Part shown: one piece after another, positions 35,089 to 37,012 of the stretch
Position numbering within the stretch: the first letter of the stretch is position 1
Layout of the letters: each line of letters starts with the position of its first letter
NCBI GenBank assembly: GCA_033391075.1
Contig: JAWPMV010000001.1
Location: 4,774,001-4,838,000 of the forward strand
Direction of reading: 5' to 3'
Origin: Bacteroidia bacterium
Lineage (GTDB): Bacteria; Bacteroidota; Bacteroidia; J057
DNA: 64,000 nt
Notes under the pieces: model-generated
Database searches by the model: none
Seen by the model: only the letters and a program-made list of their open reading frames with translations
What the model was told of the DNA's origin: nothing
Program-made: the position numbers and the translations under genes

Positions 35089-35454
35089 CTACAGCTCCAC
35101 CCAGCCTTCATTCAATTCGAGCAAATTCCTCCCGTTTCTGTTATTCAATTTTAACAAATACTCAGCTCCTGAAGGACAGCTGCAGGCTGGAGTTCCCCTA
35201 CAATCTATATCAAAAGGGCTGTGTTTATAATCTATTGCCAAGACCTTTATTCCCTGTTCATTGAGATAGCTTTCTAAATTCACAAGTTCCTGTACAAGAT
35301 TAGGGCCCCTTTCCCAGGGATAGGTACAATTGGTTTGATAGAGGGTATGGGTATAATCTTCTCGCTCCGGTTCAAATTCAGCTTCAGAGCATGAAGAAGT
35401 TGACAAGCCCAAGAGGCAGATGAAGCATAAGAATTTACTGTAGTAGTTTTTCAT
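35089..35454 (-). CDS. Four-cysteine tandem lipoprotein, member 5
   Basis: Not a recognised family. The 121-residue product has a lipoprotein signal with lipobox TSSC near residue 22. The mature part carries the array's shared marks in a divergent form: YQTNCTYPW (where other copies have CSDPWG), C-R-G-T-P-A-C-S-C-PSG, and LNEGWVEL at the end. The gap between the first cysteine of the second cluster and the C-x-C is longer than in the other four copies. It is the last gene of five in the operon. Probably outer-membrane anchored. Confidence 0.75.
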   Translation of the reverse strand: MKNYYSKFLCFICLLGLSTSSCSEAEFEPEREDYTHTLYQTNCTYPWERGPNLVQELVNLESYLNEQGIKVLAIDYKHSPFDIDCRGTPACSCPSGAEYLLKLNNRNGRNLLELNEGWVEL

Positions 35455-35471
35455 GGTTTATAGCTTAAGGA

Positions 35472-35825
35472 TTATAATTCGTACCAGTTTTCCTCCAGGC
35501 CCAGAATCTTCTGCCCATTTCCTTCATCAGTCAAAACCTTAATCATTAAACCCGAAGGACAGTCGCAGGGATTGGCACATCGAATAAAACCTACTAAATA
35601 GGAGTATACCTTGATGGCTTCAATCTCAATATCTTCATCTTTCAGGTAATTCTTGACGTCCCGGGCAAGCCTTCGGTCATCGCTTTCATCTCCCCAGGGA
35701 TCGGAGCAATTGGTTTGGTAATAGACATGGGTGAAGTCTTCAGGCAAGATTTCTTCTTCGCAGCCGCCTGTAAAAAGAACGCTAAGAGAAAAAATGCTTG
35801 CAAGAAACGTGGATTGTGATTTCAT
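35472..35825 (-). CDS. Four-cysteine tandem lipoprotein, member 4
   Basis: 117 residues, with lipobox TGGC at about residue 22, then YQTNCSDPWG, a helical middle (about 50-75) and C-A-N-P-C-D-C-PSG. The C-terminus, EENWYEL, is a changed form of the NEGW ending. It is closest in its middle to member 5 and starts 17 bp upstream of it. Function unknown. Confidence 0.78.
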   Translation of the reverse strand: MKSQSTFLASIFSLSVLFTGGCEEEILPEDFTHVYYQTNCSDPWGDESDDRRLARDVKNYLKDEDIEIEAIKVYSYLVGFIRCANPCDCPSGLMIKVLTDEGNGQKILGLEENWYEL

Positions 35826-35843
35826 GGTGTATACGTTAAAGCT

Positions 35844-36185
35844 TTATCGGGACTTCCAACCTTCGTTCAAGTCCAGAAGTTTTTGTCCATCCTGATCGCT
35901 TAGATTGATCACAATACTCCTCCCGGTAACACAGGTACAAGCTCGACAACTGGCTATTTCTCCTCCTTCTACCTGACTTGCTAATACTTCTATTTCTTTA
36001 GCTGCCAAATAGTCGCTTACCAGAGAATCCAGTTCAGCAGCTTCGTTTGTATTTCCCCAAGGATCGCTACAATGCGTTTGTTCATACGCATATTGACTGG
36101 AGAGTAAGAGCGGATCCTCTCCATCGCAAGCGACAAAGAGGATAGCTGAAATAAGAATCAGGTAAAGGCCTTTAATATTCTTCAT
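35844..36185 (-). CDS. Four-cysteine tandem lipoprotein, member 3
   Basis: 113 residues, with lipobox FVAC near residue 20 and then the full conserved set: YEQTHCSDPWGNT, C-R-A-C-T-C-VTG, the LSDQDGQKLLDLNEGW tail. Residues about 50-75 are a helical stretch rich in Leu, Asp and Ala. It has the same length as members 1 and 2. The mature cysteines (one in the DPWG segment and three in the C-x2-C-x-C cluster) could form two disulfides or a metal site. Confidence 0.8.
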   Translation of the reverse strand: MKNIKGLYLILISAILFVACDGEDPLLLSSQYAYEQTHCSDPWGNTNEAAELDSLVSDYLAAKEIEVLASQVEGGEIASCRACTCVTGRSIVINLSDQDGQKLLDLNEGWKSR

Positions 36186-36201
36186 CTACTAACAAATATA
36201 C

Positions 36202-36543
36202 TTAATCTGAATTCCAGCCTTCATTCAGGCCCAGGAGTTTCTGCCCATCCGCTTCACTGAGCTTTACATAGATCGTCTTTCCACTTGGGCAATTACAGGC
36301 GCTACAGAAAGTTCCATCTGCAACGAGTACGGTACTTTCTATTACAGAAATGCTTTGGCCATCCAGGTAATCAGCAACCAGGGTCTCGAGTTCAGAACTG
36401 CTATTTGTATTGCCCCAGGGATCAGAGCATTGTGTTTGTTCATAGGTATAAAAGGAAGCTTCAGGTAAAACTTCCTGCGTACATCCCACAGCCAAAAAGA
36501 AGAAGGCCAGAGGAATCAGATATATAAATTTATAGGACTTCAT
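36202..36543 (-). CDS. Four-cysteine tandem lipoprotein, member 2
   Basis: 113 residues, with lipobox AVGC near residue 21, YEQTQCSDPWGNT, C-S-A-C-N-C-PSG and LSEADGQKLLGLNEGW. It is close to members 1 and 3. It begins 13 bp downstream of the member 1 stop. It should be lipid-anchored and exported through Sec. No cofactor or enzyme motif is visible. Confidence 0.8.
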   Translation of the reverse strand: MKSYKFIYLIPLAFFFLAVGCTQEVLPEASFYTYEQTQCSDPWGNTNSSSELETLVADYLDGQSISVIESTVLVADGTFCSACNCPSGKTIYVKLSEADGQKLLGLNEGWNSD

Positions 36544-36556
36544 GGGTTCAGGGTTT

Positions 36557-36898
36557 TTAGTTTTCTATCCAACCTTCATTTAAATCTATCAACTTTTGAC
36601 CGTCTTCTTCAGACAATTTAATCAAAATGGTACTACCTGTGAGGCAGTTACAGGCTTCGCAGCTTTGGCCATTTTCGCTTTCAATATCCGATTCTAAAAC
36701 TGTAATCAATTTATCATTCAAATACTGGATCACTGCCTGAGTAAAGGCATTTGCCTCCCGGTCATTTCCCCAGGGATCGCTACATTTGGTCTGCTCATAT
36801 TTGTGGGTAAACTCGGCAGGCGATAAATCCTCTTCGCAGGAGGTCCCTGCAAGGCTAAGGAATATTGCCAAAGCCATCATTAAATGCTTCAATTTCAT
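36557..36898 (-). CDS. Four-cysteine tandem lipoprotein, member 1
   Basis: First gene of the five-copy array, 113 residues. The lipoprotein signal ends GTSC near residue 21. The mature protein has YEQTKCSDPWGND, a helix about 48-65, C-E-A-C-N-C-LTG and LSEEDGQKLIDLNEGW. Any promoter for the array should lie in the 114 bp upstream (36899-37012), where I see a hairpin-like ACGTAGC/GCTGCGT but no strong promoter. I do not recognise the family. Confidence 0.8.
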   Translation of the reverse strand: MKLKHLMMALAIFLSLAGTSCEEDLSPAEFTHKYEQTKCSDPWGNDREANAFTQAVIQYLNDKLITVLESDIESENGQSCEACNCLTGSTILIKLSEEDGQKLIDLNEGWIEN

Positions 36899-37012
36899 AT
36901 TTTACGTATTTACTGTGTTTGCTTTATATCTATTAAGACGTAGCAAAAGAAAGCTTCGCTGCGTATCAGGCGACACGCATATTCAAAATTCAGACACAGT
37001 AAAAGAAGATTG

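Follow-up and report, generated by a model that had tools for sequence, protein, structure and literature searches.

Organization of the array

What might a run of five adjacent genes for small four-cysteine lipoproteins do? This question is raised by one locus in the window, the 64,000-nucleotide stretch of a Bacteroidia bacterium genome that was analyzed here. The array consists of five minus-strand open reading frames (35089 to 36898), each starting with ATG. The products have 113 to 121 amino acids, and the intergenic gaps measure 17, 18, 16, and 13 bp, listed from the 35089 end upward. These coordinates bear out the original prediction of five same-strand genes separated by 13 to 18 bp and encoding 113 to 121 residues. 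The features are as follows.

36899..37012, minus strand: leader of 114 bp between a uridine-kinase-like gene and copy 1; holds an inverted repeat
36557..36898, minus strand: copy 1, first gene of the array; 113-aa lipoprotein with the lipobox Cys, C39, C80, C83, and C85; modeled
36202..36543, minus strand: copy 2; 113-aa lipoprotein
35844..36185, minus strand: copy 3; 113-aa lipoprotein
35472..35825, minus strand: copy 4; 117-aa lipoprotein with C-x3-C-x-C spacing
35089..35454, minus strand: copy 5, last gene of the array; 121-aa lipoprotein with CTYPW and C-x5-C-x-C spacing

Alignment of the products revealed a signature common to all five copies, namely, a signal peptide with a lipobox, QTxC, [D/Y]PW, C-x(2,3,5)-C-x-C-xxG, and [NE]E[GN]W. 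DPW is found in copies 1 to 4 and YPW in copy 5. The cysteine ahead of the C-x-C-xx-G cluster is spaced x2, x2, x2, x3, and x5 in copies 1 to 5, respectively, and NEGW or EENW lies close to the C-terminal end. The four mature cysteines are present in 5/5 copies. The common order proposed earlier (lipobox, QTxC, DPWG or, in the last copy, CTYPW, C-x(2-5)-C-x-C-xxG, and an NEGW-like end) and the invariance of the four mature cysteines within the array were thus both confirmed by the alignment.

A search of the own genome with copy 1 returned the other four copies at E values of 1.2e-26, 4.1e-25, 4.0e-16, and 8.5e-13; a sixth place matched at E 0.21 was no relative. A profile of the five copies detected no sixth copy at E <= 0.01 in the own genome (77 of 96 candidates scored). 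Judged by their sequences, the five array proteins are true paralogues.

The leader contains a 13-nt inverted repeat (36909-36921 and 36991-37003) with arms that are 92% complementary and 69 nt apart. A scan for sigma-70-type promoters, the coverage of which does not extend to Bacteroidota promoters, was negative for the leader, and no Rfam match was obtained. The leader is a single copy in the own genome at E <= 0.01, and its interpretation as a dispersed repeat was rejected on this ground. The array is flanked by a GHL10 glycosyl-hydrolase-like gene on the opposite strand and by the uridine-kinase-like gene and a Ham1-like gene on the same strand. The GC content of the array is 0.423 versus 0.425 in an 864-kb sample. 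The five array genes probably form one transcription unit.

Export of the products

A charged N-region, a hydrophobic core, and a lipobox cysteine were found in all five products. The lipobox was recognized in 5/5 copies both by sequence and by a scripted detector; a stricter first detector had found it in 3/5. Acidic residues at positions +2 to +6 after the lipid cysteine number 3, 1, 3, 3, and 2 in the array. At least two of them occur in 4/5 copies versus 17/59 other predicted lipoproteins (one-sided Fisher P of 0.036, a post hoc value in which the related array copies count as five dependent observations). With the stricter detector, applied to about half of the sample, 5/28 background lipoproteins were acidic at +2 to +6. 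According to PMC5080379, surface-exposed lipoproteins of Bacteroidetes carry an acidic export signal.

Relatives of the array proteins were also informative in this respect. In one genome, a 1,245-aa protein (L184:3747-7481, G789) has the four-cysteine domain in its central part and matches Por_Secre_tail below threshold (25.0 bits; cut-off, 27). Inspection by eye of L049 and L053 to L055 revealed a signal peptide without a lipobox. The L184 domain and these members indicate that the four-cysteine domain is exported. Of the surface or periplasmic module that had been proposed, export therefore stands, with the lipoboxes in 5/5 copies in further support, and the acidity after the lipid cysteine suggests that the array lipoproteins may be exposed at the cell surface.

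Age of the array and recurrence of tandem copies

In a phylogenetic tree, copies 1 to 3 grouped together (support, 97/90), and copies 4 and 5 formed long branches. A single clade of all five copies, and with it one origin, was not rejected (P of 0.609). Protein identity between the copies is 27 to 47%, and third-position identity is 0.27 to 0.39. Since both values are low and synonymous sites look saturated, the duplications are old. By these comparisons, the array is one old expansion within a wider family; the amplification with diversification that had been proposed is supported, and the two identity ranges date it as old.

Tandem copies were encountered in five other records: three copies in G119, two in G772, two near-identical ones in G848, two together with a fragment on a single G832 contig, and two on a phage contig described below. 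Single copies in G213 and G907 lie by the same GT2 glycosyltransferase gene as the three copies of G119. In another bacterial family (f49), a GT2 gene adjoins the family member at 7/22 loci examined, and this shared locus was seen in L065:7853-9068, L066, L193, L194, L197, L198, and L200. Mapping of the neighbors of homologues, which the original prediction had advised, was carried out by eye on 30 loci (6, 12, and 12 of 20 fetched stretches) and revealed no neighbor that recurs across families.

In G832, seven small lipoprotein-like genes lie in a run (L188:159-2965). In this island, two family members are interleaved with four paralogues of a lipoprotein family with a DSRCP motif, and the run ends with a further small cysteine-bearing lipoprotein.

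Placement against named families

The curated cut-offs of Pfam and NCBIfam were reached by 0/5 array proteins. The same held for 13 relatives, seven of which were scanned against both libraries and six against Pfam alone. A match of copy 3 to NF033515 (E 0.00099) was dismissed; it covers only residues 4 to 21, i.e., the signal peptide. PHROGs gave no match to the array proteins better than E 0.14, the PADLOC anti-phage profiles matched 0/12 family members at E <= 1, and PDB sequences yielded nothing for the array proteins at E <= 10. DUF2007 (PF09413) was not matched in the Pfam scans of the array proteins and relatives. Matches to DUF2007 itself were found in 4/26 genomes, three of them above the cut-off, and provided too few rows for a profile comparison. 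Among the papers listed for general search terms, none was seen to describe this family. The claim that no named family has this signature thus held against Pfam, NCBIfam, PHROGs, PADLOC, and PDB sequences. The four-cysteine lipoproteins are an unnamed Bacteroidota family with a precise signature and, by prediction, a known superfold.

Distribution of the family

A scan of genome contigs confirmed five loci among 30 pattern matches, two in Pontibacter and one each in Ulvibacterium marinum, Parafilimonas terrae, and Algoriphagus algorifonticola. Among the genomes of relatives, 7/60 carry the family, and the order-level search found it in 5/22; both counts include the own genome. At least 10/395 genomes in the phylum-level search (own included; one, L037, false) and at least 18/395 in the class-level search (own included; L058 false and L057 weak) gave matches. 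In f49, at least 52/298 genomes did so, with G762 and G785 as the weakest. These counts are lower bounds, with up to 11 candidates scored per genome in the phylum and class searches and up to 15 in the f49 search; individual reading in these searches covered the matches with a fetched locus. L037 and L058 were dropped as members, having no match to the profile of the mature part, and L057 was retained in the family set as a weak homologue. The distribution in Bacteroidota is patchy and spans several bacterial families.

Ulvibacterium carries two unlinked family copies. In Ulvibacterium marinum, a near-identical second lipoprotein gene lies close to each of them (L021:6678-7028 and L154:1533-1883), which suggests a duplicated segment.

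Protein searches of plasmid records gave no match to copy 1 or to L033. Likewise, phage records gave none to the G002 relative, and viral contigs gave none to L033. One of nine pattern matches in viral contigs was a family locus, an IMG/VR contig (L040 and L153) with two tandem copies. This contig matched a terminase large subunit (E 7e-24), a head maturation protease (E 1.5e-54), and, weakly, a portal protein (E 1.2e-4). The tandem lipoprotein genes and the head-gene matches lie on opposite strands, and the former adjoin an invertase-like recombinase gene. The terminase, protease, and weak portal matches together with the recombinase identify the contig as a tailed phage or prophage.

These observations bear on an alternative in which the array is a conflict module that shields the cell surface from phages or from the toxins of competitors by receptor masking, superinfection exclusion, or toxin immunity, with tandem copies diversifying under conflict. 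We consider this unlikely. The patchy distribution (7/60, at least 18/395, and at least 52/298), the recurrence of tandem copies, and the two copies on the phage contig, opposite to the head genes and by a recombinase, would fit it. However, no PADLOC match was found, phage records had none, and the phage association comes down to one contig (1/9 pattern matches). Furthermore, the stable locus adjoining GT2 (7/22 f49 loci) looks like vertical inheritance, and the array copies are old. A bolder version, which we regard as rather improbable, would describe a Bacteroidota-wide, phage-exchangeable family of surface lipoproteins, disulfide stapled and ferredoxin-like, in which tandem arrays provide a diversified shield against phages and competitors, with the stapled DPW end described below as the common binding head. 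If this version were true, the arrays would block phage receptors or bind competitor proteins.

Conservation and covariation of the cysteines

The four mature cysteines are numbered C1 to C4. Among 41 domains from the first searches (the single best domain per protein), C1 and C3 were present in 41/41 and C2 and C4 in 39/41. In a larger set of 77 aligned domains (78 rows minus one truncated row), C1 and C3 were present in 77/77, and C2 and C4 were lost in 2/77 each; the raw count for the C2 column is 74, and the C2 cysteine of copy 4 sits one column off. The prediction that the cysteines are conserved beyond the array was therefore supported in both sets of profile-collected members. This near-universal conservation is in part a selection effect because collection by profile weights cysteines heavily.

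The losses of C2 and C4 fall together in the same two proteins, L050 and L057, which are aligned by substitution. Given two losses per column, the chance of such coincidence is 1/2926. In L050 the change is clean, with G and E replacing the cysteines seen in the family members L044 and L045. A second pair was recognized in an FDQRQC-type branch, in which one cysteine precedes strand 1 and another lies in the tail; both are present in 21 domains, neither in 55, and the edge cysteine only in 1. Most of this co-occurrence comes from one clade and perhaps from one event. Further paired gains were noted by eye in L172/L173/L185 and in L190. Lone extra cysteines occur in L044, L045, L052, L014, L011, and L053, and an odd cysteine total was counted by eye in L030, L157, L159, and L169. 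The parity of cysteine counts within the family is confounded as a disulfide test by lipobox detection and by the lone extra cysteines; therefore, covariation was relied on. The covarying pairs give a disulfide map that can be tested.

The C2-C3-C4 spacing in the 77 domains is (2,1) in 55, (2,2) in 20, (3,1) in 1, and (5,1) in 1, with L050 and L057 counted by alignment column only. The last two spacings are those of array copies 4 and 5. The NEGW ending is limited to the array and L007 (GEGW), and many relatives end in GF or NF.

Two further records deserve mention. The 824-aa fusion that L185 seemed to encode was an artifact, in that a stretch of N separates a DUF5916 gene from the lipoprotein gene; the L185 domain was kept in the 77 rows. 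In the secreted product of L049:1249-1857 (G673), one four-cysteine domain precedes what may be a second copy of the same fold that lacks cysteines; this assignment is weak (E 0.13) and was given no weight.

Predicted fold

The structure prediction advised earlier was carried out on copy 1 with 12 aligned rows that comprise the window's own proteins and related loci. The resulting model has a mean pLDDT of 78.2 and a pTM of 0.64, with 44/113 residues at 90 or above; a single-sequence AlphaFold model (mean pLDDT, 51) was discarded. The model shows strands at residues 29-37, 69-74, and 86-96, helices at 49-62 and 97-105, and two extended residues near the end. The hairpin that holds C80, C83, and C85 is its weak part, with block pLDDT values of 67 to 69. 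A structure search with the model retrieved proteins of the ferredoxin-like superfold. The best match was an ACT domain (Z 7.6), followed by RRM and ribosomal protein S6 chains (Z 7.2 and 6.8), and Z values below 8 may represent a mere common arrangement. Foldseek gave nothing at E <= 0.001 for the copy 1 model, nor did a search of viral protein structures at E <= 0.001. Copy 1 is thus predicted to adopt a ferredoxin-like fold with a confident core and a weak cysteine hairpin.

The usual sheet order of the ferredoxin-like fold is 4-1-3-2. This order brings the end of strand 1 next to the strand 2-3 hairpin and the beginning of that strand next to the end of strand 4. The pairs C1-C3, C2-C4, and edge-tail would agree with this topology.

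The fold also bears on the possibility that the proteins inhibit extracellular enzymes, e.g., proteases, in which case the stapled end or the C-terminal tail would plug an active site and the paralogues would have different targets. Inhibitors are often small, cysteine stapled, and encoded by tandem paralogues, and ferredoxin-like propeptide inhibitors exist. Nevertheless, the Pfam scans of the array proteins and relatives gave no match to an inhibitor family, peptidase inhibitor I9/subtilisin propeptide included, and the C-terminal end differs by subfamily (NEGW versus GF/NF). We regard inhibition as quite doubtful.

Disulfides, metal site, or redox site

It had been proposed that either disulfides or a metal site are conserved in these proteins. 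The conservation of the cysteines holds; between the two options, the covarying pairs and the variable spacing favor disulfides over a metal site, a preference that falls short of certainty, and the evidence from the host is negative. In the own genome, no VKOR match was obtained at E <= 0.001 and no DsbB match at E <= 0.01, which would leave room for a distant or different oxidase. Genome-wide cysteine parity was tried as support for disulfides and gave none. Crude predictors applied to the 864-kb sample, which includes the window, revealed no even-cysteine bias among predicted exported proteins. The 59 other lipoproteins included 24 with even counts (2 to 8 Cys) and 20 with odd counts (1 to 7 Cys), the 102 proteins of the signal-peptide set 20 even and 33 odd, and the remaining proteins of less than 700 aa 173 even and 203 odd.

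If the cysteines form a metal site, the cluster of four would hold a soft metal (zinc, copper(I), or an iron-sulfur center) outside the cytoplasm, and the array would raise the binding capacity. The near-invariant arrangement C...CxxCxC, the existence of metal-binding domains among ferredoxin-like folds, and a host without a VKOR or DsbB match and without an even-cysteine bias speak for it. So does L059:10359-12322 (G002), in which an iron- or cobalamin-type ABC permease and a binding protein were noted by eye two genes off the family member; at the other loci read, including the similar locus L061, such transporters were not seen by eye. Variable spacing within a cysteine trio is unusual for a metal cluster; the spacing here is 2,1, 2,2, 3,1, or 5,1, and two proteins lack exactly two of the four cysteines. 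The profile-profile comparison also argues against kinship with HMA domains, since hhalign of the family versus 21 HMA rows gave a probability of 0.8% over 4 columns. Metal binding is improbable and ranks after defense against phages or competitors, with enzyme inhibition third.

Catalysis of disulfide exchange by the CxxC/CxC cysteines would make the products thiol redox proteins. The x2, x1 spacing of the trio in 55/77 members fits such a role, but copies 4 and 5 interrupt the motif (x3 and x5), and L050 and L057 have lost it. Moreover, the model does not resemble thioredoxin, and the 50 structure matches listed include no thioredoxin. This role is highly improbable.

Proposed role of the array

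The reading that we prefer, to which we give an even chance, is that the array is an old expansion of disulfide-stapled, ferredoxin-like exported lipoproteins that bind an extracytoplasmic partner. It starts from the layout of the array, the kinship of its copies, the conservation and covariation of the cysteines in the members found, and the negative library scans, all of which were observed. Each product would be lipid anchored, most likely in the outer membrane and perhaps facing outward, and would carry a single ferredoxin-like domain (beta-alpha-beta-beta-alpha-beta) that spans about 80 residues. A putative disulfide C39-C83 would tie the hairpin between strands 2 and 3 to the end of strand 1, and a second, C80-C85, would cross this hairpin, so that both staple the same end of the domain. 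In one branch of the family, a third disulfide would join the tail and the start of strand 1. If the copies share a recognition site, the best candidate is the conserved stapled end, formed by the QT-x-C-x-DPW loop and the CxC-xxG hairpin; the remainder differs from copy to copy. Binding of the partner, with no metal or thiol chemistry, would be the mode of action, and parallel copies may broaden or strengthen it. The five-gene array and its single-copy relatives are simple deletion targets for studying a role of small lipoproteins, and the 77-domain set is sufficient to seed a family model.

Comparison with known systems

Like the surface-exported lipoproteins of Bacteroidetes described in PMC5080379, 4/5 array copies have a lipobox followed by at least two acidic residues. 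The exact K-(D/E)2, SDDDD, and SDDFE motifs are absent from the array, and surface exposure is therefore only suggested. With HMA domains (PF00403), the array proteins share a small predicted ferredoxin-like domain and a conserved cysteine near the first loop; in contrast to HMA domains, they lack the MxCxxC motif and have no Pfam match. Ferredoxin-like folds are common, as is paralogy among lipoproteins, and the family is therefore moderately interesting as a user of a known superfold rather than as a new kind of system. ACT-domain aspartokinases, RRM proteins, and ribosomal protein S6 are intracellular. The array proteins have the same predicted order of strands and helices as the ACT domains of aspartokinase, RRM, and S6. 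The best VIA-align match to the ferredoxin-like superfold (Z 7.6) covers 73 residues at an rmsd of 2.7, and with 2 to 19% identity among the matches listed, the likeness is one of fold only.
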